DNA from: Mesoterricola silvestris
GTDB taxonomy: Bacteria > Acidobacteriota > Holophagae > Holophagales > Holophagaceae
Length of the DNA: 64,000 nucleotides
Direction of reading: 5' to 3'
Assembly (NCBI RefSeq): GCF_030295405.1
Contig: NZ_AP027080.1
Span: 1-64,000 of the forward strand
Both the position numbers and the translations under genes were made by a program. The notes beneath the pieces are model-generated. The model was not told the origin of the DNA. It was given only the letters and a program-made list of their open reading frames with translations, and did no database searches. Positions 34,131-50,266 of this stretch are shown here, piece by piece. Numbering within the stretch: the first letter of the stretch is position 1; each line of letters opens with the position of its first letter.

Positions 34131-34165
34131 AAACACTTTTATGTACCAAATGATTGTCAACCGTG

Positions 34166-34176
34166 TGTGTGGGTGA
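34166..34176 (+). repeat. Element-end signature, left copy
   Basis: TGTGTGGGTGA lies about 36 bp inside the left boundary, preceded by GTCAAC and by an ACTTTTAT stretch next to the yjbQ tail. The same 11 bases occur at 46772-46782 at nearly the same distance from the second yjbQ tail. It is probably part of the recombinase-recognised end. Confidence 0.6.
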
Positions 34177-34575
34177 CTGATTCTATTTGGCTTAGCATGA
34201 CAAAAACCGTCCTTTGGCTTGAATTATGTTAACCAACCATGGGTTTGGCGCCTTCGGGGCTGAGAGTTCTTAACAGGCAGTCGGGAGAATCATCATCCAG
34301 CAAGGATGGTTCTTCTCGTCTTCTTCCAGGGCTGGGGCAACTTCAATCAACCGGGAAATAAGACTTCATTGACCCTTCAGACCTTCTGGACTGCTCCATC
34401 GTCCAGGGAGTTCCTTTCGCGGAATATTTCAAGCATGCCCTTGCCAAGCGCGGAAGCAGAAAGATCCCCCCGACCTTTGGTGTCGAAAGGCGATAATGAC
34501 CTGCTGGTTTCATCCGTCAATTGCCTGGGGGGCGCCTGGATCGGTCACGCATTAACATAGGTCTGGAGGTGACCC
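34177..34575. other. Island left flank without a supported gene
   Basis: This stretch of about 400 bp is of lower GC and holds no convincing gene. An 84-codon frame at 34306-34560 has no ribosome site and no family features. The ribosome site of the next gene (GGAGGTG, 34563-34569) closes the stretch. Confidence 0.5.
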
Positions 34576-36162
34576 ATGGCCTGGGGACATCGCACCGTGT
34601 ATGTCCAGCAGCCCGCTAAGTCTCCCGAGACGCCCCAGGATCAATACCTGAGGATCCTGGAGGCCGCCCCCTTTTCTGAGCGAGCGGGTGCCATTGGTTA
34701 TTTCCTCGGGGAGCATGAGGACAAGGCGCAGGCTATGCAATGCGCTCAACGCCTAGCGGCGGACCCGGAGGCCGCCCTGCGCTTCGCCGGGGCAGCAGCT
34801 CTGGTCCGCTTGCACCTAGGTGGTTCGCGTGAGGCGGAGAAGACCCTCTGGACGCTAATCAGAGACGAAAGCCCAAAGGTCAGGGCCAAGGTCGCCGACG
34901 GCCTGAAGTGGGATAACCTGCCAGAGACGGGTCGGCTGAAGCAGGCGCTGGCGGAAGACGCAGATCCGACGGTTCGCGCCCACGCCGCGATGGGCTTGTA
35001 TTTGCTCGGCGATGAAGCTTCCCGTGCCTCCCTGCTAGCCCTCACCTGGGACCCTGTCGCCGAAGTCCGTGCTGAGGCCATATATGCCCTGCAGAACATC
35101 GAGGAGCAGAACAATCCGCCACCGCCCACAGAATTCTTGGGGTTCGTCGAGGACCCCTCGCCCCTGGTGCGGAGCAGCCTTGCAGCCTGGCTGCATTGGG
35201 AGAACCCCGCAATTTCGTTCCCTTACCTCCATCGGCTTGTCCGGGATCCGGATGCTTCCGTCCGGTTCCAGGCCCTTGCCTCTCTGGGGGCGAACCCGGC
35301 TTCCGAGGTCACCACTATCGTGCGATCGGCCACAGCGGACCCCGACCCATCCATCCGGGCCGAGGCCCTGAGTTTGCTCCAGAGCCGGGCATGCGCCGAC
35401 CTTCGCCAAGTCCTTCTCGCCAATGCTGCGGATTCCTCCTCGGTGGTGCGGAAGCAGGTCGCATACGGGCTAGAGCGGGATCCGACTCCCGACCTCTTGC
35501 CGACGCTTGAGAAGTTCAGCGAGGACGAGGCCAATATGAACATCCGCCGTTCTGCGCTTAGGAGCCTGGAACAACTCCCCGGTGTTGAGGCCGAGGCATT
35601 GATTGTCCGGATGTTGAGGGATCCCGCCAAACCGATCGCCAAAGCCGCAGAGAAGGTTCTCAAACAACGCGCCAAAATTCAGGGCGTCTCCCTGGAGAGC
35701 GCAAACATCGTCCAGTTCGGCCTTCAAGATGCTGTTGCGACCCGACTGGCCTTCCATGGCCTCTCAAAGGTGCCTCTGAAGGCCTGGGAGGATTTCCTGT
35801 CGCAAATCATCCGGCTGGATGGCCGGCCCAAGGCCGACTCGGCCTCCTCTCCAGCCGTGCAAGTCGAGGCCCAAGATGGAACCCTGCACTGCATTCTGCC
35901 CTTCGGTCCAGCCCAATGGATCCGCCTTGATACGGTTTTCCAGCCTGGCCACCCCACGCTTATGGGCTTCGCCATCCAAACGACAAAAGAAGTTGCCATT
36001 TGGTTCCAGACTCAGCAGCCTAGGCATTTTAACCACGGCCTCCGGTTGGCAAAGCGCCTTGGCTGGGTAGAGGGGAGTTCACCGACTTCCGATAATCCGG
36101 TCCAAACGGCCCGAGCCATCCATTGCAGGGCGCGACCATCCCGTGGCGCCCTGCTTTCCTAA
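34576..36162 (+). CDS. HEAT-repeat protein
   Basis: The 528-residue protein is dominated (about residues 30-370) by HEAT-like helical repeats. These have recurring D-P/S-x-x-x-V/I-R-x-x-A phrases such as DESPKVRAKVADGL, DADPTVRAHAAMGL, DPVAEVRAEAIYAL, DPSPLVRSSLAAWL, DPDASVRFQALASL and DPDPSIRAEALSLL. Such arrays are protein- or DNA-binding scaffolds. The C-terminal third (about 380-528) is not repetitive and is not recognised. ATG 34576 follows GGAGGTG. As first cargo gene, convergent with the GHKL ATPase gene, it may be an adaptor of the neighbouring system, but that is inferred only from position. Confidence 0.8.
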   Translation: MAWGHRTVYVQQPAKSPETPQDQYLRILEAAPFSERAGAIGYFLGEHEDKAQAMQCAQRLAADPEAALRFAGAAALVRLHLGGSREAEKTLWTLIRDESPKVRAKVADGLKWDNLPETGRLKQALAEDADPTVRAHAAMGLYLLGDEASRASLLALTWDPVAEVRAEAIYALQNIEEQNNPPPPTEFLGFVEDPSPLVRSSLAAWLHWENPAISFPYLHRLVRDPDASVRFQALASLGANPASEVTTIVRSATADPDPSIRAEALSLLQSRACADLRQVLLANAADSSSVVRKQVAYGLERDPTPDLLPTLEKFSEDEANMNIRRSALRSLEQLPGVEAEALIVRMLRDPAKPIAKAAEKVLKQRAKIQGVSLESANIVQFGLQDAVATRLAFHGLSKVPLKAWEDFLSQIIRLDGRPKADSASSPAVQVEAQDGTLHCILPFGPAQWIRLDTVFQPGHPTLMGFAIQTTKEVAIWFQTQQPRHFNHGLRLAKRLGWVEGSSPTSDNPVQTARAIHCRARPSRGALLS

Positions 36163-36283
36163 GTCTTGGGCGCATGGCAGGGCATGCCCTCCGTTGGTAA
36201 TGGTGAAGCCGGAATGGATGCGCTAGATCACTTTTGGAATCTTGACCTAACTCTCCAAGTAGCCGTTCCGGTGCATACCATAG

Positions 36284-37810
36284 CTAAATCCGCGCCATGA
36301 TTCGATCAACCAGCGTTTTTGCTGCTACTCGATTAACCGAGCACTCGTAAATCAGACTGATCATCCGCTGAATGGTCTCCCGCTCCTTTTTAGGCAGCTC
36401 TGCCAGCGGCCCAGCTTCCGAGGTCACCTTCTTGGCCTTTTTCAACCTGGACTCCAGCTCCTGATGCCTCTCTGCCAATAGGCTGCGGTCCTCTTCACAT
36501 AGGACCTGCGCATCAGCGACCTTCCTGATCTCATGCATTTCGCCTTGGATTTCTTGGACGATCGCATCTGCCTCGTTCTTGCGAAGCACTCCTTGTTCCA
36601 GGATATTCAACCGCTCCTCGATCTTCAGGACTCCGATATCAAAAGCTTTGATCCGATTGCGGACAATGGAATTGCTCCGGCAGAGGCGGGCAACGTGGTC
36701 CCCGATCTCAGTTAATTGATGGATGACTTGGGTATAGTGGGCATTCTGTTCAAAATCATCCCGGCGTCCGTTTGGAACAACCCTGTCATCCAGCAGGTGG
36801 ACTTCGCCCACGATCCAACTCGCAAACCGGGCTTCCGGGAAGATGGACGTAAAGATCCGGTGGTCGCCGACCTGAATGTTTCCTTTCCTGGCTTTGAGGC
36901 CCTTCACACCAGAGGCACTGGGAATTGCGCCGAGGTAGCTGTGGTTCACCATCCAGGCGACGGCAGAAACGCCGCCATTCATGCCGGGGAGGACCCGAAA
37001 CTCTGGGTCAGTGAATTCATCGGTCTTCGCATCCCCGACCGAAAATTCATTCAGGTAGGGTCGGTAAAGGGGAGTCTTCTTCTTACCCAGAAGGATCTGG
37101 ATCTCATCCAGGGCCGTATGCTCCCGGAGGAAGGCCGCTATCTTCTTGCCATATTTGAACTTGGGATTGAAAGGAACGGGCGCGACCTGGGATAGGTAGC
37201 GTCCGATTTCATCCTCGTTCAGAAGCAGGTCGTTCTTGATCCTGATGGGCTTCACCAACTCGACTTCGTAGAAGTGCTCAGGCCATCCGTCCGACTCAAG
37301 GACGGAGACCGTGGCGACCGCCTTGATGAGTTCCCCCACGCCACCGTCAAAATGGCTGTCCGTAACCAGTTTCTTGAAGGCTTTGCAGTCCCAGACCAAC
37401 TCCTGGACGTTGGCGTCCCCCTTCGACCGGGACCTGAAGATCAAAGACTGGCAATACCCCAGGCCAGCCAGCCGACCCACCCCGCGAAAGCCCCTGGCTG
37501 CGGTCCCTCGCTTCCGGCTGGCACCGAGGGAAGTAAGACGCTTGGCGAACTCACCGTTGGGAACACCCGTGCCGTTGTCACGGATTCGGACATTTCGGTT
37601 CTCGGCGTCGATATGAATCTCCACCTGCCCTATTTCATTGCCATAAAGGTTTAAGGCACGGGCCTCATCAATCGAATCGGCGGCATTCTGCACGTATTCC
37701 CTATAGATGGTCAGGGGATCGACGTACATGGCGGAGGTCACTAGCTCAAGAATGTCCTTACCGATCAAGATGTCGTTGGGGAGAGAAATGCTCGTGTGTT
37801 TGGTCACCAT
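36284..37810 (-). CDS. Hsp90-like GHKL ATPase
   Basis: The 508-residue protein has an N-terminal GHKL ATP-binding fold. The N-box is REYVQNAADSIDEA (residues 37-50), the Asp-Gly motif is IRDNGTGVP (near 78), and the lid Gly motif is GFRGVGRLAGLG (near 107). The middle region resembles the Hsp90/MORC-type transducer domain. The C-terminus (about 370-480) is a long coiled-coil stretch rich in Glu/Lys/Arg. ATG 37810 follows AAAGGA, 8 bp after the radical SAM stop, so the two are surely co-transcribed. GHKL ATPases of this kind recur in bacterial defence islands, but the job here is not known. Confidence 0.82.
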   Translation of the reverse strand: MVTKHTSISLPNDILIGKDILELVTSAMYVDPLTIYREYVQNAADSIDEARALNLYGNEIGQVEIHIDAENRNVRIRDNGTGVPNGEFAKRLTSLGASRKRGTAARGFRGVGRLAGLGYCQSLIFRSRSKGDANVQELVWDCKAFKKLVTDSHFDGGVGELIKAVATVSVLESDGWPEHFYEVELVKPIRIKNDLLLNEDEIGRYLSQVAPVPFNPKFKYGKKIAAFLREHTALDEIQILLGKKKTPLYRPYLNEFSVGDAKTDEFTDPEFRVLPGMNGGVSAVAWMVNHSYLGAIPSASGVKGLKARKGNIQVGDHRIFTSIFPEARFASWIVGEVHLLDDRVVPNGRRDDFEQNAHYTQVIHQLTEIGDHVARLCRSNSIVRNRIKAFDIGVLKIEERLNILEQGVLRKNEADAIVQEIQGEMHEIRKVADAQVLCEEDRSLLAERHQELESRLKKAKKVTSEAGPLAELPKKERETIQRMISLIYECSVNRVAAKTLVDRIMARI

Positions 37811-37818
37811 GATTCCTT

Positions 37819-39465
37819 TTACCGTGCCAGCGCCGCAGGCCGAGGGCTAGGCTCGGTCGAGTCCCCATCGTCCATGAGGCCAGCGTCTTCGACGACCTCG
37901 TCTTCGGGGAGATTGAAGGCGGGTTCCGGGGCTTCCAGCTTTCGCAGTTCCTTCTGCTTGTCCCAGATCACCCGCTCCACGTCCTTCTCAAGGGGGATGT
38001 AGAAGCTGAGAATGGCCTGGAGCTTGGGGTTGGCGACACCTTCCACCTTGCTCCTGATCTCAGCCCTGGTGAGGCGGTCGCCATCATTCTCGAATAGCCA
38101 GGTGCAAAGATACCCCGCCAGTTCGGAACGTTCTTCATCGGAAAGCCGGGCATCCTGAGCCAGGAACTCGTCGTACTCGGATCGTCCGTCCCCTTTGAAA
38201 TACCACATCCGGTTGAAGATGAAGTGGTGGGGCAGCGAGAGGAGCTTGAGGAAGTGGACGGAGGACTCGCCAAAGGCTTCCCGGAAGAAGTCCGGGCTGC
38301 CGCTGACAATGCCGTGGGTGGCCTGGAGGATGACTTGCATGGAACGGATCTGGTAGCGGTTCCAATGTTTGCCAACGAAGGACCGGTCCTTTTGGTCAAC
38401 GGGGTGATACCGCATTGGGAAGGAGAAGATGCGGATATTCAGTTCCTCGTTCAGTTGGACGTTCAGGTGCATGCGGTCGTAGAGGTCCGCAGGGTCGTCG
38501 TTGTAGTTGTAGAGCATGTAGTTGGACAGGCCCTTGATGCCATTATCCGCCGCCATGCGGATGGAGGTTTCGTACTGCTTGCGCAGCCCCAAGTGATCGA
38601 AGGCGATGCGCAGGGGGCTAATGCAGGTTCGGGCAATCTGCTTCATCAGTTCGCCGTTCTTGGCGAGTTCCCGGGCATCTACGCCTTGGTTGAAATCGAC
38701 CCTTCGCATGATTTGGATACCGCGTTTGCGGATGGTCGCGCCCCGGCCAAACCCCAGGTCCACCACCTCGGAGATGATGTCGGCAAACTTCTCCGAGGCC
38801 ACGATGTTGTTGTCCATGAAGATCAGGTCTTTCTTCTGACCGTACCGGGCCTCAATGCCGTTCACCAGCTTGGTGATGGACGGCGTGTCACGCTGGCCAC
38901 CTTCAAGCTTCGGAACCCCACAGAAGCTGCATGTCCGAATGCAGCCGCGCGAAGCATAAAGGAAGTAGGCGTCATGGACGGGGTAGCGATAGCTGATCTG
39001 TCCGAGGATGGAATAGTCCGGCAGCATCTCCTCAATAGGGCCGCTATGCCGGTCCTCCGAATAGAGTTCTTCGTCAAATTCATCCAGTTGCAGGGACTCC
39101 GCTGGGGAATCGACCAGCAGCCCTTGAATGAAGCGGATGCCTCGCCATCTGGGTTCTTCCAGGAACTTGTCATGCATGAGGGAGGCTGCAATCCCGCCTA
39201 CAAAGACGAGGTCCGCCCTGCCGTGGGCGACCTCCAGGGCGAAGTCGATGGACCTAGCCGTGCGGGTCCACTCAAACGAAAATAGGGTCGTGATGTAGAT
39301 ACGATCCCAGGCCGTGCCAATGACGGAACGGTCCTCGCCCTTTATGAATCTCACGTTGTCGCCCTTACCCTGGGGGCCATGGTACTGGGCAAGTTTCATC
39401 AAGCCGAGGGGAGGGTATTTGTTCCTATAGCCAGGTTCTATCAAAAGAATGTTCTTGTTTGCCAT
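37819..39465 (-). CDS. B12-binding-type radical SAM protein
   Basis: This protein has 548 residues from ATG 39465 (GGAG 5 bases upstream). The N-terminal part (NILLIEPGYRNKYPPLGLMKLAQYH...) has the layout of a cobalamin-binding Rossmann domain, though the DxHxxG cobalamin motif is not evident. The radical SAM core carries the cluster motif CIRTCSFC (Cys175, Cys179, Cys182), followed by IFMDNNIV and an extended C-terminal domain with an acidic tail. Such enzymes make a 5'-deoxyadenosyl radical to modify RNA, peptides or small molecules. The partner is the GHKL ATPase gene directly downstream. This composition is unusual for a defence-type cassette. Confidence 0.82.
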   Translation of the reverse strand: MANKNILLIEPGYRNKYPPLGLMKLAQYHGPQGKGDNVRFIKGEDRSVIGTAWDRIYITTLFSFEWTRTARSIDFALEVAHGRADLVFVGGIAASLMHDKFLEEPRWRGIRFIQGLLVDSPAESLQLDEFDEELYSEDRHSGPIEEMLPDYSILGQISYRYPVHDAYFLYASRGCIRTCSFCGVPKLEGGQRDTPSITKLVNGIEARYGQKKDLIFMDNNIVASEKFADIISEVVDLGFGRGATIRKRGIQIMRRVDFNQGVDARELAKNGELMKQIARTCISPLRIAFDHLGLRKQYETSIRMAADNGIKGLSNYMLYNYNDDPADLYDRMHLNVQLNEELNIRIFSFPMRYHPVDQKDRSFVGKHWNRYQIRSMQVILQATHGIVSGSPDFFREAFGESSVHFLKLLSLPHHFIFNRMWYFKGDGRSEYDEFLAQDARLSDEERSELAGYLCTWLFENDGDRLTRAEIRSKVEGVANPKLQAILSFYIPLEKDVERVIWDKQKELRKLEAPEPAFNLPEDEVVEDAGLMDDGDSTEPSPRPAALAR

Positions 39466-39866
39466 TAAGGCTCCAGAAGGCTCCCGTCGGGTCCTGAAGG
39501 AAATGATAGCGAGAACGGCCCACAAGTCGATCCCTAAGGCGCTGTCTGCATCCGCCTCGGCCAACTTCTGAAAAGAGAGGGGACCATCCTTTTTGCAACT
39601 CCATAATAATTTCATTCCGCATCACCCTTGAGTGCCGACGAGTTGTATAGGGATTGCTGGGGAATCTGCTTGCCACCCAAAAATAAATGCTGGCAGCGTC
39701 ATTGGCTGTCCATTGTCGTGGTGCAAAATCACGAAAGCAAAATGAGGGAAACGATTCATTCGTCTTGCTACTATTGGGGATTGCTCTCATTCAGTGCGGC
39801 CTTCCGTTTGGTTTTCATCTATCAGGTAGCGGCCGTAAACCTTAATAATCCAAGGAGGAATGGCTA
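39466..39866. other. Divergent regulatory region of the cargo
   Basis: This is a 401-bp spacer between the divergent radical SAM/GHKL operon and the ParB-nuclease-helicase operon. It is AT-richer than the neighbouring genes and should hold both promoters. No clear coding frame is seen. It ends with a strong AAGGAGG (39852-39858) serving the plus-strand operon. Confidence 0.55.
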
Positions 39867-40892
39867 ATGCCGCTTGTCATCCAGTACTTGGAGGTCAAAG
39901 ACATCGTCCTGGACTGCCGCAACCCTCGGGTGGCACCTGCACTGGAATCCCTGGAGGGAGACCCTGCGCAGGACTTCATCGAGATGGCGCTTGGCCAGTA
40001 CGCACCGGATGATTCGGAAAAGCCCAATTCCACGACTTTCTCCAGCCTCAAGGCGTCCATCCGGGCCTACCAGGGACTGATCAACCCAATCGTGGTGACC
40101 CAGAGGGAGGACGGTAAGTTCCTGGTCATCGAGGGCAACACTCGGGTTTCCATCTTCCGCCAGCTTGCCAAGGAAGGTGCGCTCGGCGATTGGTCCAAAA
40201 TCCCCGCGATGGTCCGCACCGAGTTGGAGGAGGAGGGAGAACATGCCATCCGCCTCCAGTCGCACCTAGTCGGCCCCCGCGACTGGCGTCCCTACGCCAA
40301 GGCCAAGTACCTCCACATGCTGTACACGGAGAAGAAGATCTCGATTACCCAGATTCTCGATTACTGTGGTGGCAGCGCCAGGAAGCGGGAAATCGAAGAA
40401 TTCATATACGCCTACGTGGACATGCAGGATCATTACATGGAGGTCATCGGCGACAACCCGCCGGACTACACCCGCTTCAGCGCCTTCGTTGAGCTTCAGA
40501 AGCCCGGCATCAAGGAGGCCATCACCAAGGCCAAGTTCACGCTGACGGACTTCGCCAAGTGGGTGCATGAGTCCAAGATTCACCCCTTGAGTACGGTTCG
40601 GCAGATTCCCAGGATTCTCGCCCACCCCGAAGCGCGGAAGAAGTTTCTGTCCTACAACGCCAGGGAAGCCATGAAGGTGCTGGAACAGCCCAGCGCCAAC
40701 GCGGCGCTGAAAGAGGCGACCATCGACCAGTTGGCGCAGGCCATCACAAGCAAGATTCGTACTCTCAACTACTCCGACATCCAGGGACTCAAGGAGGCCA
40801 ATACCTCCCTTCCCGCCCAGACGCTGCTCGAATGCTACGAAGAGCTTCGTGACCTATGCAAAATGACAGGCATGGTTACGGAAAATGAGTGA
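39867..40892 (+). CDS. ParB-like protein 1 (EGNTR type)
   Basis: The 341-residue protein contains a ParB N-terminal/sulfiredoxin-like domain with LINPIVV (residues 71-77) and EGNTRVSIF (89-97), the loop that binds nucleotide in ParB/Srx folds. The following helical region (about 125-200, ISITQILDYCGGSARKREIEEF) looks like the ParB helix-turn-helix. The rest is helical. Translation starts at ATG 39867, 8 bases after AAGGAGG. It is first of four overlapping genes. ParB-like NTPases with an EGN(T/S)R loop also occur in DNA-modification and defence systems (compare DndB/DpdB), but no further members of those systems are present. Confidence 0.8.
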   Translation: MPLVIQYLEVKDIVLDCRNPRVAPALESLEGDPAQDFIEMALGQYAPDDSEKPNSTTFSSLKASIRAYQGLINPIVVTQREDGKFLVIEGNTRVSIFRQLAKEGALGDWSKIPAMVRTELEEEGEHAIRLQSHLVGPRDWRPYAKAKYLHMLYTEKKISITQILDYCGGSARKREIEEFIYAYVDMQDHYMEVIGDNPPDYTRFSAFVELQKPGIKEAITKAKFTLTDFAKWVHESKIHPLSTVRQIPRILAHPEARKKFLSYNAREAMKVLEQPSANAALKEATIDQLAQAITSKIRTLNYSDIQGLKEANTSLPAQTLLECYEELRDLCKMTGMVTENE

Positions 40893-41328
40893 AGGGCTTC
40901 ATCACAAGCTGCTCGTCCAGGCCCTGCTTGGGGAGATCCGGAATCCCGCAGAATGGGACCGCCACCCCTTCGTCTACTGGGACCTTGAAGACGAGAACGG
41001 CGTGAATGTGCCCCCTCCCACCATTCAAGGAAGCCGCCCCGATATCCTGGCGCGGGACCCGGGTGACCGTCGCGTCATCATTGCTGAGGCGAAAACGTCC
41101 AGGGACATCGACAACCGCCACACGGAGACCCAGTTGGAAGCCTACTTCTATTTCCTGTCCGCTTTCGAAAAGGCAGAGCTTTGGCTAGGCGTCCCCTGGT
41201 CCTGTGGTGGCACTGCCAGGAGGGTTGCGATGAACGTCAGGTCCACCGTCGGAACCAACCATATTCCTATGCGGATCATGGATTTCCTGGTGGGCGAACC
41301 CATGTACAAGAGGGTCTGGAATGGGTGA
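40885..41328 (+). CDS. PD-(D/E)XK nuclease-like protein
   Basis: The 147-residue protein has the core of the restriction-endonuclease fold: Asp53 in RPDILAR and Glu68-x-Lys70 in VIIAEAKT, followed by an amphipathic helix with Gln (TETQLEAYFYFL). The N-terminal helix HHKLLVQALLGEI fits the first helix of the fold. It overlaps the ParB-like gene before it and the helicase gene after it by 8 bp each, so production is coupled. The nuclease probably works with the helicase as a split restriction-type enzyme, an inference from motif and order. Confidence 0.75.
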   Translation: MSEGLHHKLLVQALLGEIRNPAEWDRHPFVYWDLEDENGVNVPPPTIQGSRPDILARDPGDRRVIIAEAKTSRDIDNRHTETQLEAYFYFLSAFEKAELWLGVPWSCGGTARRVAMNVRSTVGTNHIPMRIMDFLVGEPMYKRVWNG

Positions 41329-42811
41329 ATTTACGTTCCGTCTTCGCTCGGAACCGAGCCTGGAGGCGCGGCACAAGGCGTTTCCCTTCCAGGGGGAGGC
41401 TGTCGAGTTCGTAACCTCTAGGGACTACGCGGCGATTTTCCATGAGCAGGGTCTTGGCAAGACCAAGATCGCCATCGATGCCATGCTCATGTGGCTCCAG
41501 CGGAAGGAAGTGGACACCATCCTGATCTTCACCAAGAAAGGGCTGATCGCCAACTGGCAGCGGGAGTTCAAGAGCCACACCAGCATCAACCCGCTGGTCG
41601 TCACGGAGAACACGGCCAAGAATTACTACGTGTTCACCACCCCTTGCCGGGTCATCCTGAGCCATTTCGAAGCGGCCAAGAAGGAACTGTCGCGGTTCAA
41701 GGCATGGGCCAAGTCGCGCCGGGTGGCCGTCATCATCGATGAGTCCGCCAAGATCAAGAATCCCGAAAGCGACCTGACAAAGGCGTTCTTCGAGTTGGGA
41801 CCGTACTTCGCCAAGCGGCTCATCATGACAGGGACCCCTGTGGCCAACCGGCCCTACGATGTCTGGGCACAGATCTTCTTCCTGGACCAGGGAGCGGCGC
41901 TCGGCACCGACTTCAAGGCGTTCAAGAAGGCCACAGACTTCACCAGTGAACTGGCCGACCACCCGGAGGCCTTCCAGGCCTTCACCGAGGCCCTCAGCGA
42001 GGTGAACCGGAAGCTTGCCCCGATTTCCTTGCGGGAAACCAAGGACAGCGGCCGGATCATCCTGCCTTCCAAGGAGTTCATCCGGGTGGACTGCGACTGG
42101 GAGCCTGCGCAATTCGAGCTGTATCGTCAGGTCCGGGAGGATTTGCGGCTGCTGATCATGCGGGACGGCCAGCTTATCGAGGACGATCAGGAATCCATCC
42201 TCAAGCGGCTCCTGCGCCTGATCCAGATCGCGTCCAATCCCTCCATAATCGACGGCGCCTATTCGTTGCTGCCAGGGAAGTTCAACTATCTCTACGACCT
42301 TCTCACGGACATCACCCGCCAGGGTGAGAAGGCCATCGTCTGGACCAATTTCAACGAGAACTGCGAATGGCTGAACAAGCAGCTTGCGCCCTTTGGGGCC
42401 TTGCCGATGAACGGCAGGATGAACATGGAGCGGCGGAACGCTTCAATCAACTGGTTCCTGGAAAGGCCGGAGAACCAAGTCCTGGTCGCCACACCAGGGA
42501 CGGCCAAAGAGGGTTTGACCCTCACGAACGCCAACCACGTCATTTTCTATGACCGCACCTACAGCCTGGATGACTACTTGCAATCCCAGGACCGGATCCA
42601 CCGGGTGTCCCAGACCCGGACCTGCTACGTATACAACCTGATCATGCTGAATTCGGTAGATGAGTGGGTTGATGCGCTGCTGGAAGAGAAGCGGTTGGCT
42701 GCACAGATCACCCAGGGCGACATCACTGCCGCCGCATACGCTGAGCAAGCTTCGCTTCAGTTCTTTGACATTCTCAAGCAGATTCTAGGTAGGGAGGATA
42801 GTCACTCATGA
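41321..42811 (+). CDS. SNF2-family DNA translocase/helicase
   Basis: The 496-residue protein has both RecA-like lobes. Walker A is HEQGLGKTKIA (44-48), and motif II is VIIDESAKIKN (about 138-148, a DES variant typical of SNF2). Motif III is IMTGTPV, motif V is TPGTAKEGLTL, and motif VI is QSQDRIHRVSQ near 425. SNF2 enzymes move along duplex DNA and remodel or unload bound proteins. No additional DNA-recognition domain is attached, so the ParB-like or nuclease partners may supply targeting. It overlaps its neighbours by 8 bp (5') and 4 bp (ATGA, 3'). Confidence 0.9.
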   Translation: MGEFTFRLRSEPSLEARHKAFPFQGEAVEFVTSRDYAAIFHEQGLGKTKIAIDAMLMWLQRKEVDTILIFTKKGLIANWQREFKSHTSINPLVVTENTAKNYYVFTTPCRVILSHFEAAKKELSRFKAWAKSRRVAVIIDESAKIKNPESDLTKAFFELGPYFAKRLIMTGTPVANRPYDVWAQIFFLDQGAALGTDFKAFKKATDFTSELADHPEAFQAFTEALSEVNRKLAPISLRETKDSGRIILPSKEFIRVDCDWEPAQFELYRQVREDLRLLIMRDGQLIEDDQESILKRLLRLIQIASNPSIIDGAYSLLPGKFNYLYDLLTDITRQGEKAIVWTNFNENCEWLNKQLAPFGALPMNGRMNMERRNASINWFLERPENQVLVATPGTAKEGLTLTNANHVIFYDRTYSLDDYLQSQDRIHRVSQTRTCYVYNLIMLNSVDEWVDALLEEKRLAAQITQGDITAAAYAEQASLQFFDILKQILGREDSHS

Positions 42812-43812
42812 CCTTCCAGGAAGATACGATCACGATCCGGAAGAAGGAAATCAAAGTCAAAACGGGCTACATGCCCCAGCTGGACTTGCGGTTCTTCCCC
42901 GAGAACCCCCGCATCTACTCCATGGTTTGGGCCGAGGACGGTGAAGTGCCGACCCAGGAGGAGATCTTTAATGCCCTGTCCAAAAGTGAGCATGTCCGCG
43001 AGACCTTGGTCCCCAGCATCAAAGCCAATGGAGGCCTGATCGAGCCAGTTCTGGTTCGGAAAAATGTGGTTCTGGAAGGTAATAGCCGCCTTGCCGCCTT
43101 TCGATTGCTTTACCAAGTCGATCCGAAGGCCTGGGTCAACATCCGCGTCAAGATTCTGCCGGATGGCATCACTGACAGCGAGGTGTTCTCTCTTCTGGGC
43201 GAATTCCATATCGTCGGCAAAAAGGACTGGGCGCCTTTCGAGCAGGCTGGGTACCTCTACAGAAGATTCAAGCTCCACGGCGTCCCCGAGGATCAATTGC
43301 ACCAGGAGGTGGGCATTGGCAAAGCCAAAATTCAGCACCTCATCCGGGTCTACCAATACATGCTGGACAAGGGCGACAAGAACCCTGACCGCTGGAGCTA
43401 CTACGATGAGCTTTTGAAGGGACGCAAGTTCGACAAGGCCCGCGCGTTATACCCTGGCTTTGACGAACGCATCACCGGGATGATCCAGGACGGCTCAATC
43501 TCCAGGGCCGTCGATGTCCGTGACAACCTTTCCATGGTGGTCAAGGTCGGCGGAAATACCCTTAAGAAGTTCATGAACGGTGGATTGACCTTCGATGGCG
43601 CGGTAGAAGATGCTCGGTTACGTGGAGCAGGTAGTTATTACGTCACCAAATTTTCTGATTTCCGAAAATGGTTGGCTGACGACCATTTGGATGCCGAAAT
43701 CAGTTCCGTTTCCGAAAAGGAAAAGGGTGTGTTGGAATATGAGCTTTCTCGAATCGAAAAGCGAATCAAGCAGATTGCACACAAATTGAAGCCTTCTACT
43801 TCTTCCAACTAA
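42808..43812 (+). CDS. ParB-like protein 2 (EGNSR type)
   Basis: The 334-residue protein is a second ParB/Srx-fold protein in the same operon. It has GLIEPVLVRKNVVLEGNSRLAAFRLL (loop Gly91-Asn92-Ser93-Arg94 within its second half). A helix-turn-helix-like segment follows (about 150-175, HGVPEDQLHQEVGIGKAKIQHLI). It differs clearly from the first ParB-like protein in sequence, so it is not a recent duplicate. The pair may form a heteromeric clamp or a DNA-binding complex. The start overlaps the helicase stop (ATGA). The 3' end becomes AT-rich and faces the convergent Rossmann-like gene. Confidence 0.78.
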   Translation: MTFQEDTITIRKKEIKVKTGYMPQLDLRFFPENPRIYSMVWAEDGEVPTQEEIFNALSKSEHVRETLVPSIKANGGLIEPVLVRKNVVLEGNSRLAAFRLLYQVDPKAWVNIRVKILPDGITDSEVFSLLGEFHIVGKKDWAPFEQAGYLYRRFKLHGVPEDQLHQEVGIGKAKIQHLIRVYQYMLDKGDKNPDRWSYYDELLKGRKFDKARALYPGFDERITGMIQDGSISRAVDVRDNLSMVVKVGGNTLKKFMNGGLTFDGAVEDARLRGAGSYYVTKFSDFRKWLADDHLDAEISSVSEKEKGVLEYELSRIEKRIKQIAHKLKPSTSSN

Positions 43813-43845
43813 TAGCAATGTCAGAATTGGCGGATAGGCTAAGGG

Positions 43846-44694
43846 CTATAGGTCTGGAAATAAATTAAGGGGTAAAGTCTCTTCGGCTTCGGGCGCGGGG
43901 ATCCAGGGGAATTCATCAAAAGGATGGTCATTTAGGCCTGTAATTTCTCTCTCAACTTTTTGAACGGCGAAGGCCCAAAGGCCCATCGGAACGTTTGTGT
44001 CCCGATATTTATACTTTTCAATTAGCGCTGGTGACAATTTCTCTGACGCATGGACTCCGCCTGTATTCCGTAGGAAGGCCTGTCCAACAAGTAAATCGAC
44101 GTGATTTCGCACCTTGAATTGAGTGTCAATATCGCCTTCGTCAACATGGAAATAATCCGAAAATAGATTCAGCTTATCTTCCATAAATGTAGGTTGATGC
44201 ATAACCCGCGGCACAAGGCATGACGTGATAATTAGGAAATCGCCGGCACGCAATAGATTAAATTTTAAAAGTGACTCAATCGCCCCTTGGTGCCTCTGTG
44301 CAAAACATTCGGTATAATCTAAAAAGAATATGAAATTCTGTCCTGCTTGACGTTCTCCAAGCTTCCCGAAATCAATTGCAAAGTCTCCTTGAATCACGGA
44401 AATATGAACACGCTTAGTCAGTCGCAAGGCTTTTGCCACAACGCAGTTGTTTGCCTTTTGCGCCAAGTCCTCCTCGAGCTCGAAAGAGAAGGCTAAGAAT
44501 TTTCTTTTTCGGAGGTCAAATACGGCAAGTAAGTCCATTAAATCATAAAGCTCTGCTCCGCCAAATGTCACATAGGAGATCAAATCCGCCCCAGGCTTGA
44601 GTTGCTTTTTTACAGATCTAAAGCACTGGTTTAGCACTAGTCTTTTCTGGATGCGGTATGGAGGCTGGAGGGTATCGTGGTATTGGTTGCTCAT
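43846..44694 (-). CDS. Rossmann-like protein of unknown function (possible methyltransferase fold)
   Basis: The 282-residue protein is AT-rich. I do not recognise a family. The order of strands resembles a class I methyltransferase. LISYVTFGGAELYDL stands in for motif I, FLAFSFELEED for motif II with an acidic end, VIQGDF for motif III, FIFFLDYTECF for motif IV, and LLRAGDFLIITSCL for motif V. The usual GxGxG is missing, so this is weak. It is the second gene after the GHKL ATPase on the minus strand, 25 bp downstream, and is probably its partner. Confidence 0.5.
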   Translation of the reverse strand: MSNQYHDTLQPPYRIQKRLVLNQCFRSVKKQLKPGADLISYVTFGGAELYDLMDLLAVFDLRKRKFLAFSFELEEDLAQKANNCVVAKALRLTKRVHISVIQGDFAIDFGKLGERQAGQNFIFFLDYTECFAQRHQGAIESLLKFNLLRAGDFLIITSCLVPRVMHQPTFMEDKLNLFSDYFHVDEGDIDTQFKVRNHVDLLVGQAFLRNTGGVHASEKLSPALIEKYKYRDTNVPMGLWAFAVQKVEREITGLNDHPFDEFPWIPAPEAEETLPLNLFPDL

Positions 44695-44719
44695 TTATCT
44701 TATCGATTCGCGCGAGGCA

Positions 44720-46423
44720 TTATTTGGAGGTTGGGGTAGAACGAACAATCAGTGCCACGAGATAATTTTTGACAGCTTCAGATAGTTTTGTTGAATCTGA
44801 AACTTTAAAAATTCTTAAACAGTTTGAAAATTCATTCGCATTTAACGGGAACACTATGCCGGCCGTTAAGCAATCGTAAACAATAACTCCTAAGGAGTCT
44901 TCATCCTGTGCCCCGAGGGTCGCGCATAAATTTTCAAAGTCTGCTGGTGCTAATGAAATTGTAATCTGCCGATCTGCCGGTGGTTCCATTTCGCTTGTGG
45001 TACCCTCTCCGGAGGTGTCCTCGCTTTCGTTGGTTGGCGATGTGGCTGTGGTGCTTGGATCGGCGGCGCTTGGTTTTTTTGATTTCACGGCTCGCCTATC
45101 AAACTTAAAGGCTGGCCTGTGTTCCTCGGGAATAATCGGGGAATAGGGACTCACTGGCACAGTGGCTGGTATTCCTGTGAAAGCCTTAACTAATTCTGTA
45201 TTTCTATGCTCTGTCTCTGTTGCGAAAGTTCCAGAAACTTGGCCATATTGGACAAGGAAAGGCCTAATTACTGTCCGAAGCCAAATGCTAACTTCGTGAT
45301 CTTTGAAATATTCGCGCTTATGCGTATCCCATGGAATTCCAAGGCTGTGACCAGAGATGTGTAACTCGCCCCTAACAAACCGGCTGCCTACGGTATTTTT
45401 ACCAAGGCCGGTTGTTCCAAATCCGAATTCATCCTTGAGATATTTTTGAATCAATCTGCCATTCGCATAAACATCAATTCCGAAATCCTTTTCTCGATTG
45501 GTGCCTTCGCCAGGTTGATGAGTTAGCAGCCCAACTGTGAGCTCAAATTTCAATTCAACATCCTGCCCACTGTTCACCAAATTCTTAAAGGTATTTTGGA
45601 AGATGTATGTTCGAGGTTCAACTCCATCTGCGCCTGAATATACAATCTGGGGAACAGCGACAACCGGGGATTTGTTGACTGAAATTTGTACTTTCTTTCC
45701 ACCCTCATTGCCTCGGAGAATAGGGGCATATATTTCGCCAATCCTTGCTCTCAATACGCTAATATCATCAAGGTTAGGGGGTAGTATCAGCCGGAGAAAG
45801 TAAAACCGCGTTAGCCCAACACCAATTGCATCAGTGCGCCCATCCAGGGTTTTCCAGGTAGGGTCTTTCTCCCACCCTTCGGGCACTTCGCTAAAAGACG
45901 AAAAATCGGCCGACTTACAGGAGACGACCCGAACCCCATCCGAAAGCCTAAATATTGCTTTCTTTGCACCCATGCCAAAGGATCCGATCATGGGCTTTGA
46001 AAGGTCATCATTGGTGGATTCGCCTGGGATAAAGACTTTGTACACTGTTTCGTCGTCCATCCCGCCAGCGTTATCCTCAAATTCTCCAACGCCAAGGGTG
46101 ATGTCATAGTTTATTTTTATCTTGAGATCTGCTATCTTTCCACCGCGTCGCCATTCATCAATGGAATTATCTATCAATTCGTAGTTGGCTTCAAAAAATG
46201 AAAGATCTCTTCGAGCATTTAGGACAAGGGCTTTCGGTGGAGCGTGGTCCTTAGCTTCAGCTCCCGCTGATGGCTGTATATTCGCAAAAAAGGTTCGGAG
46301 GCCGAGAAAGAAGCTGATGTCTTTATTGTATGTTTTTGCAAGGGTGGGAAAATCGTGCTCGTTGAGGATAGCTCGCTGCTCTGACGTTGTTAACGATTCC
46401 CAAGTCGTAGTCTCAGAATCCAA
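44720..46423 (-). CDS. GHKL ATPase (MORC/Hsp90-like), second copy in island
   Basis: The 567-residue protein uses a TTG start at 46423 behind GGAGG. The GHKL fold shows the N-box ANYELIDNSIDEW (79-91), FEDNAGGMDD (near 115) and the lid GSFGMGAKKAIF (near 147). The middle (about 200-400) is a predicted transducer domain. A Ser/Thr/Pro/Glu-rich linker (about 440-490) precedes a small helical C-terminal domain. It is not closely similar to the GHKL protein at 36284-37810. It is markedly AT-rich compared with the backbone, so it has a different source. It is paired with the Rossmann-like gene downstream. Confidence 0.8.
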   Translation of the reverse strand: MDSETTTWESLTTSEQRAILNEHDFPTLAKTYNKDISFFLGLRTFFANIQPSAGAEAKDHAPPKALVLNARRDLSFFEANYELIDNSIDEWRRGGKIADLKIKINYDITLGVGEFEDNAGGMDDETVYKVFIPGESTNDDLSKPMIGSFGMGAKKAIFRLSDGVRVVSCKSADFSSFSEVPEGWEKDPTWKTLDGRTDAIGVGLTRFYFLRLILPPNLDDISVLRARIGEIYAPILRGNEGGKKVQISVNKSPVVAVPQIVYSGADGVEPRTYIFQNTFKNLVNSGQDVELKFELTVGLLTHQPGEGTNREKDFGIDVYANGRLIQKYLKDEFGFGTTGLGKNTVGSRFVRGELHISGHSLGIPWDTHKREYFKDHEVSIWLRTVIRPFLVQYGQVSGTFATETEHRNTELVKAFTGIPATVPVSPYSPIIPEEHRPAFKFDRRAVKSKKPSAADPSTTATSPTNESEDTSGEGTTSEMEPPADRQITISLAPADFENLCATLGAQDEDSLGVIVYDCLTAGIVFPLNANEFSNCLRIFKVSDSTKLSEAVKNYLVALIVRSTPTSK

Positions 46424-46682
46424 GGAGACCTCCGTGTGAAATTGGATTGTAACGCAAGGAGCGGTTCATTGGTCCTCGGTATCTGCGCCCATTACCTCGG
46501 AACCTTGAGCCTCTCTGCATGACTCTGTCGGAAATTAGATTAGTCATTTCATTGTGGCACACGGCCATCATTGATGGAAGGGTGTTTGATGGGATTTGAA
46601 ATTTGCAAAGATAGCTAAACATCTACCACGGACCATCCAAGGCTCAGTCGGGTGAAATGTGAATGCGATGGGGATTGTGCTT

Positions 46683-46752
46683 TTCCCTACTTATTTTTAC
46701 CAGGACCTTCTTATCCCGCCTTCCAACAAATTCTCCATAGTAAACTTCTATA
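46683..46752 (-). pseudogene. Foreign yjbQ 3' fragment inside the island
   Basis: On the minus strand this encodes IEVYYGEFVGRRDKKVLVKI and then SRE, the YjbQ C-terminus in a diverged, AT-rich version that runs on into unrelated codons until 46644. It lies next to the second copy of the TGTGTGGGTGA end signature, in the same relative position as at the left boundary. It is best read as an old attachment-site half carried in from another host or left by an earlier insertion. Confidence 0.8.
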
Positions 46753-46771
46753 CATTTAAGGGATGTTAACT

Positions 46772-46782
46772 GTGTGGGTGAG
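46772..46782 (+). repeat. Element-end signature, internal copy
   Basis: TGTGTGGGTGA, identical to 34166-34176, with GTTAAC just before it where the left copy has GTCAAC. It lies about 30 bp to the right of the internal yjbQ fragment and is likely the left end of the second (recombinase-bearing) element. Confidence 0.6.
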
Positions 46783-46802
46783 TGCCTGAACCGGAGGGGT
46801 AA

Positions 46803-47510
46803 TTGGCCAAGAAACCTAAGCCCCTTAGGCGGTACCTGAAGGCCCTGCGGCGATCCACGATTGCTTTCGGAGCGGTGGGGCGAGAACTGTTTCCCCAGGA
46901 CGAAGTGGGGCGCGAAATCCTCGAACCATACAGGAGCGTGATCAAGGAGTTTTTCCCTCGGGAACCTAACGTTGACACAAGGCTGAGGGTCGAGGGCGAA
47001 ACGCCGATGCACACCTTGCCCCAGGGGCAGAAGTGCAGCCACGGCCATGAAGAAGGGTCCCCCGAACTCACCCCCCAGGATAACCCGAAGGAGTTGGAGA
47101 GCCTCTTGCGGGACCTTGTGATCGCTGAGGTGGCCAACCAGACGCCGGAGGGCCCGCAAGAGCCATTGGGATTGCAGTGCGAGGTCGCAGACCTCTTGCC
47201 GTCCTGGATGTTCGGCGGCGGTTGGGATGATGGTCCCTTCACCCACCATCCGGGGGCCCGCATCTACCTGGACTACCTTGTCGGTGGGCGTGTCTACTAC
47301 CAAGGAGGGGTGCGTCAGGGCATCCTCGGCTGGTTTCGTGTGGGCGAGTTTCGGAAGCTCCGACTCCTGGCGGTTGAGGACTACCGCGCGGCCCTGGCAC
47401 GACTGGAGGGGATTTCCGCCTGGGCCAAGCCCGGAACCTCGGAAAGGGATGAGTTCGAGGGCTTGGCCTTCCTGATCGACGAGTGGGAGCGGAGCGCAGG
47501 TCCACTCTGA
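46803..47510 (+). CDS. Unknown protein with a GGGW...HPGARI region
   Basis: The 235-residue protein has a TTG start with GGAGG 4 bases upstream. I do not recognise a family. A basic N-terminus (MAKKPKPLRRYLKALRRS) is followed by a region with FGGGWDDGPFTHHPGARIYLDYL and VYY. The same arrangement recurs in the broken gene at 48773-49625 (YGGGWADGDLPLHPGARIRL), so the two are paralogues. It is the first gene inside the presumed left end of the second element. Confidence 0.6.
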   Translation: MAKKPKPLRRYLKALRRSTIAFGAVGRELFPQDEVGREILEPYRSVIKEFFPREPNVDTRLRVEGETPMHTLPQGQKCSHGHEEGSPELTPQDNPKELESLLRDLVIAEVANQTPEGPQEPLGLQCEVADLLPSWMFGGGWDDGPFTHHPGARIYLDYLVGGRVYYQGGVRQGILGWFRVGEFRKLRLLAVEDYRAALARLEGISAWAKPGTSERDEFEGLAFLIDEWERSAGPL

Positions 47511-47651
47511 GACTTGGTTCTACTTGCTATAACGCAACCTGGGCAACAACCGGCGCGTGACGCGGGCAGTCGCTGGAGTTGAATTGTCGACCAGTTCAGG
47601 CGGGATCCTCGTTGTCGGTCCCCGGGCAGCTACTGCATTCCGCGTTCGCGG

Positions 47652-47864
47652 CTAGAGAGGATGCTGGTCGTCCACCTGGTGTCGGAATTGCCCAACCATC
47701 CGGCCGTAGCGGTCACCTTGCTCTCGATCTAAGATGGCCTCCCCGCATGCGGGGCAGAACTCGCACGTCACCGCCGAGATGATGGCACTTACACCACGGT
47801 AGTCGGTGGGAATATCGTGGGTGGTATGTATCAGATCCGCTGCCCCGCAAGCTGGGCATCGCAT
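47652..47864 (-). CDS. MqsA/YgiT-type zinc-finger protein, lacking the HTH half
   Basis: The 70-residue product starts at ATG 47864 with AAAGGAG upstream. The two CxxC pairs MRCPACG and CPACGEAIL, with DIPTDYRGV between them, match the N-terminal zinc domain of MqsA antitoxins. MqsA normally continues with a helix-turn-helix domain, which is absent here because a stop follows QVDDQHPL. Short YgiT-type proteins exist on their own, so it could be complete. No MqsR-like toxin lies upstream. Confidence 0.65.
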   Translation of the reverse strand: MRCPACGAADLIHTTHDIPTDYRGVSAIISAVTCEFCPACGEAILDREQGDRYGRMVGQFRHQVDDQHPL

Positions 47865-48315
47865 GGGGTTGGTCTCCTTTCCACTAGGATAGACACGTTT
47901 GGAGGAAGACCACGGGGAGTCGGACCTGACCTCAAGGGGCCTTGCTTCTATAGGATGGGTCATTGGTGTTCTCCAGCAACCCAAGGACCCAGCCTTTAGC
48001 CAATAGCAAAACTGGTGGTATGGAATGTCCAGGCGGCGCGCAGCCTTTGCCGAAGTCCACTCCCTAATCCTTAATCCCTTAACAAGGTATTTTCCCCCCC
48101 CCGACGAAGCCGATCAGATAGCTGTTGATGACAAACCGAGGTGGGACATATGGAGAGCGTGCAGCGGCCTTCATGAGCCCGCCCGGATTCACGATCGACA
48201 TTTGGGGGCTACCGCGCAATACCTGAGAGTTGGACACAACTCCCCTCGTCGAAAAAGTGCGGACACTCACTTGTGGGAAATCCCACCAGGCATATACAGT
48301 GAACGGGAAGGCAAA
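47865..48315. other. Stretch without a supported gene
   Basis: A plus-strand frame runs from 48025 into the antitoxin gene, but its first 97 codons have no ribosome site or domain features, so it is not treated as coding. The minus strand also shows nothing convincing. Confidence 0.45.
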
Positions 48316-48522
48316 ATGTCCATGGCGGAACCCCGAAAAACAATTCGTCCGGACAGCAAGGGCCGGAACATACTTGAACCAGAGGTTGAGGTTCCAGGCG
48401 CCGAAGCATGGCTCTGGCAAAACCCTTCCGCCATAAAGTCGGTACAGCAAGGGCTGAAGGACTCATTCGAAGGCAAGTTGTTGAATCCCGGCAGCTTCGT
48501 GGCCAATACGAAGGGGGAATGA
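48316..48522 (+). CDS. Putative type II antitoxin
   Basis: The 68-residue protein (ATG 48316, GGGAAGG upstream) resembles small RelB-type antitoxins in its second half: VPGAEAWLWQNPSAIKSVQQGLKDSFEGKLLNPGSF. That phrase (aromatic residue, NP, QQGL) is typical of antitoxins paired with ParE/RelE toxins. The N-terminal half (KTIRPDSKGRNILEPEVE) would be the DNA-binding or linker part. The toxin that should follow is present only as a stump, so this is probably an orphaned antitoxin. Confidence 0.6.
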   Translation: MSMAEPRKTIRPDSKGRNILEPEVEVPGAEAWLWQNPSAIKSVQQGLKDSFEGKLLNPGSFVANTKGE

Positions 48523-48600
48523 GGCGTACAAACCCTGAAGTTCACAGCTGAAGCGGATCGCAACCTTGGGGGTCTTGAGGCAAACAATCGTTTAGCCTAG
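48523..48600 (+). pseudogene. Remnant of a ParE/RelE-type toxin gene
   Basis: Directly after the antitoxin stop, the frame reads VQTLKFTAEADRNLGGLEAN and then hits TAG at 48598-48600. The phrase LxFTAEADRNLxxLE is a characteristic N-terminus of ParE/RelE-fold toxins, which are about 90-100 residues long. No start codon is left in frame, and the remaining three quarters are not found downstream. Confidence 0.55.
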
Positions 48601-48772
48601 GTTCAACTCCGGATTTCACGCGGCCAAGTTATGCTGCCGCAAGGTCCGGCCGAAAGCGGCCGTCCGAAATCCTCATTAATGGTAGGCAGTTGCGGATCGG
48701 CGCTCAGGTCGCTCTCGCGTCACCCAATTCCCTCGGTCAGCGCGGGGAATCAGACGCCTCCGGCCCAGGCTG

Positions 48773-49625
48773 TCAAGGCACAGGCGGCTCTGGGGCCTGG
48801 TCGGTGGTCAACAGTGCCTCAAACCCCGGGCGAGGCACCAGGTGCACGTTCTGGAACCCCTGGGCATCCTCCAGGCATAGATGTTGGCCGCCCCCGTGGT
48901 GGGTGTCCCAGACGGGGCGATGGACTGGGCATTGGCTGACGTACACTCTCTGGCCGACCTCGGCGGCCTCTTGGTTATCGACCATGGGGCAGTAGCACCC
49001 ACGACGGTGGGCCTCAGGGGGTTCCGGGCGGAGAGCATCGGGATGCGGCCCTTGCGTGCCGCAGTTCCCCAACCAACCTTCGATTCGATGCCGTACCGGA
49101 ACGCCAAGGAGCAAGCCCGGGAGGCCAGGGCGTGCACCGGCGACGCCGTCGCCCAAGTCGTGCAGAATGTCCTGGGCCTGGACTCGCAACACGATCTGAC
49201 TCGGGGAGTCATCCTCAAGCTCAGCATGGACTTCGAACCGGACCTCCATGGCGTCCAGCGCAGCCATGGCTGCATCACTGATTGGGCCCGGAATTTTCAG
49301 GATTTGCTTTCCATCCAGCCGCCGAACCTTGGTCGGGTCGTGCGCGGGGAAATTGACGCCGCCGACCTCGAACCACGGTGGGACCCGTGGGAATACGTAG
49401 AAGACCCGCCATTCGTGAAAGGTGCGTCAAGCGGATGCGGGCTCCGGGGTGCAAAGGCAGATCTCCATCGGCCCACCCGCCCCCATAGGCGTAGGTCAGC
49501 AGCGGCGCGGTCACCTCCACCATGTAGCCGAGGCGTTTCCCAGGCAGCGGACGGGGCCAAGGCCGCCCCAGAAGGCACTGGGTTAGGGCAACCCAGTGGC
49601 GGAAGGGTTCGGGGTTGGTGGCCAC
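48773..49625 (-). pseudogene. Frameshifted paralogue of the 46803-47510 gene
   Basis: On the minus strand the frame starting at 49625 encodes YGGGWADGDLPLHPGARIRL and then diverges. A different frame picks up near 49425 with TFHEWRVFYVFPRVPPWF and continues through VRRLDGKQILKIPGPISDA and FEVHAELEDD to the stop at 48773. Together they parallel the protein at 46803-47510 (HPGARIYLDYL...RVYY). A single-base change near 49415-49427 would explain it. It is either a decayed gene or, less likely, a programmed frameshift. Confidence 0.6.
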
Positions 49626-49816
49626 GACATTTCCTGCCTCTGCTAGGTTGAATACATTCTTAGGGACAGGCTAACCGCTGCGCTTACCTATTTTGCGGCG
49701 GAATCCCGCTTGCCGACCCGCCTTCAGGCCACTTCTCCGTTGGACAAACCAAGAACCTATGGCCTCTCACCATGTAGCCAACCTCTCTCTCGTCCGCAAA
49801 AGCTCATGTTTCCGGG

Positions 49817-50266
49817 TTACCGACTTGTTTGATCGAAGAGAGGTGCCTGGGAGGATGAGCTTTCCGCCCTCACGAACAGATAGGTCGTAGCCTCGAGTAC
49901 CGCGGATGCGCTCAACTCGGCCTGATGTGCGATCCTGCCTAATTCTTCCAACTGGCTCTTGAGCATCAAGACCTGAATTCCATGCTTCCCCTTGCGCTGC
50001 CGAAGTGCAATCACAGCTTGGGACGCCCTGTGGAGATCGGTTGGCTGAAGAAAGTCCTTCACCTGGGCAAAGCCCTCCATCACGCCGTGGGAATACTTCC
50101 TTCTCGGAAACATCGACGAGAGCATCCCGAAAGTGTCCTGGTCGAGGCGGCATTGAGGGCCAGAGACCCGCGGGCCCTGAGCTGCCAGTTCCCCCGCCGA
50201 AAGTTCGAGGTCCGTCAAAAGGGCAGTAAGGCGGGCCTGAAAATCGCCTCTGGCTTTGTCTCCCAT
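49817..50266 (-). CDS. Helical protein of unknown function
   Basis: The 149-residue protein starts at ATG 50266 behind AGGAGG. No family is recognised. It looks mostly helical (ARLTALLTDLELSAGELAAQ and QVLMLKSQLEELGRIAHQAEL). It is divergent from the XRE-type regulator gene with a 107-bp shared spacer, so the regulator may control it. Confidence 0.55.
   Translation of the reverse strand: MGDKARGDFQARLTALLTDLELSAGELAAQGPRVSGPQCRLDQDTFGMLSSMFPRRKYSHGVMEGFAQVKDFLQPTDLHRASQAVIALRQRKGKHGIQVLMLKSQLEELGRIAHQAELSASAVLEATTYLFVRAESSSSQAPLFDQTSR

Follow-up and report, generated by a model that had tools for sequence, protein, structure and literature searches.

The first 64,000 nucleotides of the Mesoterricola silvestris contig NZ_AP027080.1 (assembly GCF_030295405.1; this whole stretch is called the window here) carry four overlapping genes at positions 39867 to 43812, and the question they raise is what such a set does and whether it does so alone. 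In a preliminary description they were presented as a system in their own right, in which an SNF2 translocase and a small nuclease are enclosed by two ParB-like proteins. The comparison of loci confirmed that these genes form a real, conserved cassette but showed that the cassette is one exchangeable part of a larger system, whose constant core is a radical-SAM enzyme paired with an HSP90/GHKL ATPase. We consider it an even call that the cassette is the DNA-attack module of a modular, mobile, restriction-like defence system built on this core. The genes concerned are the following.

37819..39465, minus strand: radical-SAM enzyme (rSAM), core gene 1, class-B-like by predicted fold
36284..37810, minus strand: GHKL/HSP90-like ATPase (HSPa), core gene 2; Pfam HATPase_c_3 at 2.4e-10
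39867..40892, plus strand: ParB1, ParB/Srx-type N domain with [ED]GNTR, 341 aa; Pfam ParB_N
40885..41328, plus strand: Nuc, small predicted PD-(D/E)XK nuclease, 147 aa; conserved residues and fold
41321..42811, plus strand: SNF2-family translocase, 496 aa; Pfam/PADLOC and conserved motifs
42808..43812, plus strand: ParB2, diverged ParB/Srx-type protein with EGNSR, 334 aa; hhalign to ParB1

The open reading frames of ParB1, Nuc, SNF2 and ParB2 overlap successively by 8, 8 and 4 bp, exactly as first described. The core pair (36284-39465, minus strand) lies divergent to the cassette and directly beside it; the rSAM reading frame runs to 39615, and its probable real start is Met51 at 39465, where all homologues begin. 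This pair, like a second GHKL pair on the other side (43846-46423, minus strand), sits just outside the interval that the preliminary description had covered.

Relatives were sought by scanning 84,980 species genomes with an rSAM alignment, which returned 193 relatives; the best 80 of the 193 were taken with their flanks. Together with the window and nine others they make 90 loci, selected without reference to the cassette, and 68 of these have at least 5.5 kb on each side (some are near-duplicates, e.g., L048/L049 and L057/L058/L066). The rSAM and GHKL genes were adjacent on one strand, mostly overlapping, in 68/68 of the full-flank loci, and are presumably co-transcribed. The ParB/SNF2 cassette was present in 39/68, with the order ParB1-Nuc-SNF2-ParB2 kept, and because the same gene order recurs in dozens of genomes the cassette is not a chance arrangement. 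Far from being confined to this genome without co-conservation, it spans seven or more phyla (Pseudomonadota, Acidobacteriota, Verrucomicrobiota, Nitrospirota, Latescibacterota, Chloroflexota and Gemmatimonadota). A genome of the same phylum and another family (G217, locus L010) has the same six genes in the same divergent layout; L010 also has a 340-aa gene upstream of rSAM, whose plasmid relatives show a DGQHR domain of the DndB/DpdB kind.

Several other modules accompany the core. Among the full-flank loci, a DGQHR gene was found in 36/68, PIN_8 with a second GHKL gene in 27/68 and a long protein with restriction endonuclease (REase), DGQHR and HEPN domains in 15/68. When neighbours were clustered de novo, these families and those of the core and cassette alone recurred in at least 30 loci; the next family, a tyrosine integrase, was seen in 7. 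The cassette and the REase-DGQHR-HEPN protein occurred together in 1/68 only, and there as a 63-bit partial match (Fisher p=7e-6, without correction for phylogeny); this mutual exclusion is the pattern expected of alternative effectors. The DGQHR gene, which overlaps rSAM by about 8 bp, matches DndB PF14072 at 1.4e-9 and DpdB at 6e-15. The DndB and DpdB families are linked to DNA phosphorothioate and 7-deazaguanine modification. PIN_8 and a Swt1-type HEPN are domains of the alternative modules, with the HEPN residues R736-x4-H741 conserved, and a rarer module consists of HerA and GHKL genes, its HerA matching 7f6d at 6e-26. The core thus stays constant while its modules are exchanged.

Variants of these modules were also noted. 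In L027, L100, L101 and L104 a NurA-like gene, HerA and GHKL stand before the core in place of the ParB cassette, and L075 has a partial version; the NurA-like gene was identified by eye and has no Pfam or PADLOC match. In L063, L067, L081 and L082 a HerA-type ATPase near the DndH C-terminal domain (3e-47) lies close to the core, adjoined in L063, L067 and L082 by a diverged GHKL gene. L019, L047, L065 and L091 carry a variant cassette, SNF2-Nuc with at least three ParB-like proteins in place of two and three ParB2-like proteins in a row. On the Mesorhizobium plasmid pMSNZP2077A (L016), a patatin-like phospholipase and a DncV-like cyclase of CBASS type (23686-25629) are found about 5 kb from the system.

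Because the genome scan was anchored on rSAM, searches were also started from the cassette. The plasmid searches returned 7 records for ParB1 and likewise 7 for SNF2 (E up to 1e-60), 7/7 being among the rSAM records. Within the host phylum (396 genomes), full-length rSAM occurs only in the window genome and G217, and true ParB1 in the same two, while ParB1 was detected in 3/298 Rhizobiaceae genomes with rSAM 4-6 kb off in 3/3. Viral contigs gave eight cassette loci, seven of which had core genes detectable by hidden Markov model. The eighth, L211 (8622-13877), has a very diverged CxxxCxxC radical SAM gene (GCIRQCAFC) overlapping parB1 and related to rSAM (hhalign 96%, E 2e-9); no GHKL gene was detected in L211. 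This exception argues strongly that radical SAM is the functional partner of the cassette. Immediately upstream in L211 there is a reverse-transcriptase-like open reading frame, recognised by eye.

Across plasmids, host phylum, Rhizobiaceae and viral contigs, no cassette without a radical-SAM neighbour was found. This bears on the idea that the four genes are self-contained, with ParB clamps, an SNF2 motor and a nuclease. The cassette is indeed inherited as a tight unit: in distance-matrix correlations over 34 loci, values within the cassette were 0.61-0.82, as compared with 0.84 for the core and 0.35-0.60 between core and cassette. Nevertheless, the radical-SAM neighbour beside every cassette found and the lack of a clamp-type GERR motif leave this explanation very improbable, and a standalone four-gene system was rejected on the cassette-first searches. 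Inheritance of the core is separate from that of the cassette. ParB2-like proteins in G026, G203 and G233 were also rejected as relatives of the system, as they stand alone, with neither the other cassette genes nor rSAM.

The motifs of the cassette proteins are intact. ParB1 matched Pfam ParB_N at E 4e-5, just short of the curated cut-off, and its profile gave weak matches to SbnI and Noc. ParB2 had no Pfam match; it matched PADLOC PDC-M38A at 8.6e-11 and proved a homologue of ParB1 (phmmer E 1e-9; hhalign 99.8% across 238 columns). The motif [ED]GNTR is kept in 26/26 ParB1 and EGN[SR]R in 25/25 ParB2 sequences, which bears out the earlier recognition of two distinct ParB/Srx-fold proteins by their EGNTR and EGNSR motifs. 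Partition ParB CTPase clamps carry GERR, whereas [DE]GxxR is the motif of DndB/SerK-type ParB/Srx proteins, and it is the latter that the [DE]GN[TS]R of ParB1 and ParB2 resembles. The sliding clamps proposed in the preliminary description found no support and were therefore not adopted.

In Nuc, residues P52-D53, E68-A69-K70 and Q83 are invariant in 30/30 homologues, among them the Asp53, Glu68 and Lys70 already named in the preliminary description. A search of PDB sequences with the Nuc and ParB2 profiles gave nothing useful, and it was fold comparison that identified Nuc: its AlphaFold2 (AF2) model (predicted local distance difference test score 93) has as nearest PDB folds SdaI (Z 8.5), the BspD6I small subunit (8.2) and PaqCI (8.2), with EndoMS and FokI also among the nearest PD-(D/E)XK enzymes. 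With active-site residues placed on a predicted REase fold, Nuc is assigned to the PD-(D/E)XK nucleases. The SNF2 assignment likewise held, with matches to Pfam SNF2-rel_dom (3e-25) and Helicase_C (6e-18) and the GLGKT, DE and R-I-H-R motifs kept across 40 homologues; by its sequence, with helicase motifs and a C-terminal lobe, the protein belongs to the SNF2 family.

In the core, rSAM is well conserved, with a median identity of 62%, while the modules diverge faster (22-53%). The C175-x3-C179-x2-C182 motif of rSAM is invariant in 29/29 homologues, with no further invariant cysteine, and its N-terminal domain (KYPPLGL...GG) is a putative B12-type Rossmann domain. The nearest folds to the AF2 model of rSAM were MgmA (Z 17.8), AprD4 (17.5), MiaB (16.6) and RimO (16.1), followed by CysS, TsrM (Z 15.3) and OxsB (Z 14.7), after which Z fell to 12 or less; rSAM is therefore, by predicted fold, a class-B/methylthiotransferase-type radical-SAM enzyme. 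Overall, the model scored Z 14.5-17.8 against the cobalamin-type set (MgmA, AprD4, TsrM, OxsB) and 9.8 against the B12 protein AerR. Foldseek alone was weak for both predicted models, with no E below 0.001. For HSPa, the family profile matches HtpG 2ior at 1e-11, and the N-box E38/N42, D78-x-G80 and G107-x-x-G110-x-G112 are invariant. Small phage relatives of rSAM form phrog_9298; among 71 loci examined they adjoin PAPS-reductase-like genes in 13 and DNA methyltransferases in 10, 6 and 5, the families being assigned by eye. One Acidobacteriales genome, G305, has two rSAM gene copies 60 kb apart (C40:54496-56046 and 114811-116364).

Such a core might, instead of marking self, detect infection or make a signal or toxic nucleotide, in principle like viperin, and so switch on the cassettes. 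One core with many effectors describes signalling systems too, PIN and HEPN effectors are typical of abortive infection, and GHKL ATPases are able to gate protein complexes. However, viperin scored only Z 9.1 against the rSAM model, far under the class-B set (14-18), and the DndB/DpdB-type partners and the closeness to class-B enzymes and MiaB point to modification of a macromolecule, so that a signalling role is unlikely. The macromolecule could itself be RNA (e.g., a tRNA, as for MiaB), with effectors that respond to the loss of that RNA or to an attack on it. MiaB and RimO are among the nearest rSAM folds, and PIN_8 and HEPN_Swt1, the latter with its conserved R736 and H741, are RNase families. 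Against this, the window cassette, with SNF2, PD-(D/E)XK and ParB proteins, consists of DNA machinery, as does the HerA module, and with only three invariant cysteines in rSAM a second cluster of MiaB type is not visible; we regard an RNA target as quite unlikely.

The function proposed here is that of a DNA-directed defence system. Guided by a ParB/DGQHR protein, the rSAM/GHKL core would put an unusual modification on nucleic acid, with host DNA as the likeliest target; ParB1 and ParB2 together would read the modification state via their nucleotide-dependent ParB/Srx domain; and on unmarked DNA the SNF2 motor would translocate and the PD-(D/E)XK subunit cut. Elsewhere the cassette is swapped for the REase-DGQHR-HEPN protein, PIN with GHKL or HerA with GHKL. 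The chemistry of the modification, its target and the antiphage activity are what we infer. DndB/DpdB-type partners, together with an rSAM fold near C-methylases and the RNA-acting MiaB, point to modification. Additionally, nucleases and DNA motors make up the alternative effectors (HerA, DndH-like HerA, PIN_8, Swt1-type HEPN), which supports this function, and the small phage relatives beside DNA methyltransferases and PAPS-reductase-like genes were counted in its favour. In its most specific form, in which a cobalamin-type rSAM and the HSP90/GHKL ATPase write a chemically new host-DNA mark (e.g., C-methyl) and plug-in cassettes destroy unmarked DNA, the proposal is tentative and stands somewhat below an even chance.

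A number of observations weigh against this function. The DGQHR gene is absent from the whole window genome (best E 0.38), and about half of the loci are without it. Cobalamin binding by the rSAM N-terminal domain is putative, being suggested by fold likeness, and radical SAM enzymes act on many other substrates, so that nucleic-acid modification by the core is something we infer. PIN/HEPN RNase-type effectors would be equally compatible with RNA as the target or with abortive infection. Finally, in a comparison aimed at enrichment near known defence genes, PADLOC at 1e-15 gave hits in both the 117 neighbours and the 113 same-genome controls, one of the controls having a CRISPR locus.

The setting of the system in the genome raises one more alternative, namely that plasmids and islands rely on it for maintenance, DNA repair or partition, and that defence is not its role. 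Further features of the window are relevant here.

34134..60077, no strand: integrated island carrying the system, 25.9 kb, ends approximate; empty site in G097
57066-58598 and 58591-59973, minus strand: two tyrosine-recombinase genes at the island right end; Phage_integrase at 6.7e-5 (below cut-off) and 3.4e-11
43846..44694, minus strand: family-less protein paired with the second GHKL ATPase, downstream of and outside the cassette
44720..46423, minus strand: HSPb, second GHKL ATPase, accessory module; HATPase_c_3 at 3.3e-6

The same-genus genome G097 joins window position 34133 to 60078 with a 3-base overlap (G097 C1:42992-42994), and GC content falls from about 0.70 to 0.45-0.60 within the island. 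The island has its insertion point in the C-terminal end of a YjbQ/UPF0047-type gene, which is split by it; a complete 144-aa YjbQ-type copy lies inside the island (50780-51214, plus strand). With an empty site, plasmid copies and integrases nearby, the system is horizontally mobile. Occurrence on plasmids and integrative islands, the presence of ParB domains and the lack of proven enrichment next to known defence genes are what a maintenance module would have. On the other hand, the system is also chromosomal, no ParA-like family recurred among the cassette neighbours in the clustering of the loci, full-length rSAM is very patchy (2/396 genomes of the phylum) and swappable nucleases are a typical trait of conflict systems. 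A maintenance role is decidedly improbable, and the defence system proposed above is preferred.

As to the rest of the island, the 43846..44694 protein had no match in Pfam, PADLOC, NCBIfam or PHROGs, and its sole homologue, weak (17 bits) and cut off, stands beside HSPb in L055, an Acidobacteria metagenome-assembled genome locus in which the HSPb homologue adjoins rSAM and HSPa. The region 54934-59973 (minus strand) holds three overlapping genes, the third (711 aa) without match, perhaps a recombinase trio. The island also carries an MqsA-type antitoxin (47652-47984, minus strand; 5e-20) and a RecD2-like helicase (51959-54070, minus strand; AAA_30 4e-41, HHH_RecD2 1e-10). An interspersed repeat, about 70 bp long, lies at about 33700-33810 of the window; G097 matches it partially at more than 20 places, many of which form inverted pairs.

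If the proposal is true, bacteria mark DNA (or RNA) by radical chemistry for self/non-self discrimination, of which no description was found in the open-access literature or PADLOC. The same core with at least four different effectors is a natural experiment on what the core signals. A testable role would be given to a large unannotated radical-SAM/GHKL pair, with 193 relatives in one genome scan, and likewise to small phage radical-SAM proteins, often beside DNA methyltransferases.

A match to a known system was rejected, as PADLOC, NCBIfam, Pfam and PHROGs gave single-domain matches only. No matching system was found in PADLOC or the open-access literature, subscription journals and preprints being outside the search, and the earlier view that the set matches no named system, whether Dnd, Dpd, BREX, DISARM or Wadjet, was upheld. 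With Dpd, the locus shares an SNF2 motor related to DpdE (2.8e-33), a DGQHR/DpdB-like protein (E 6e-15) in most plasmid relatives and, as we would suppose for the system here, the logic of a modification enzyme combined with a nuclease. However, TGT-like DpdA and the other Dpd genes were not seen, an rSAM and GHKL core standing in their place; in PADLOC/NCBIfam searches with nine locus genes SNF2 alone matched DpdE, weakly, and no Dpd neighbours recur. The likeness to Dnd/Ssp lies in the DndB-family DGQHR protein (PF14072) of about half of the loci and the DndH-like HerA domain of one module variant; no DndA/C/D/E or DndF/G neighbours recur across loci. MORC/paraMORC restriction-modification operons have been described with DNA methylases by Iyer et al. 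2008 (PMC2292703), and in the accessible part of that article they share with the present system a GHKL ATPase, a SWI2/SNF2 or other superfamily 2 helicase and an REase-fold nuclease, but no radical SAM or paired ParB is described in that part; HSPa here is closest to HtpG. The SNF2 core is homologous to Zorya ZorD (1.2e-45) and to the BREX/DISARM SNF2 helicases, although the motor alone is shared: this generic core alone scores, and no ZorA/B/C, PglZ or DrmA/B/C recur. The long DGQHR protein of L018 is possibly Saro_3948. A HEPN-ParB fusion is listed in 'Saro_3948' in the accessible part of PMC3710099, where GmrSD/DUF262 and HEPN-ParB fusions combine a ParB/Srx-type domain with a nuclease, as here, but where no radical-SAM system is described. 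Altogether, the closest known systems are Dpd, Dnd and the GHKL/MORC operons, the defining genes of none of which are present. The locus is placed with systems of the modification-restriction kind, and should radical SAM indeed make such a mark, there is a fair chance that it represents a category of its own.

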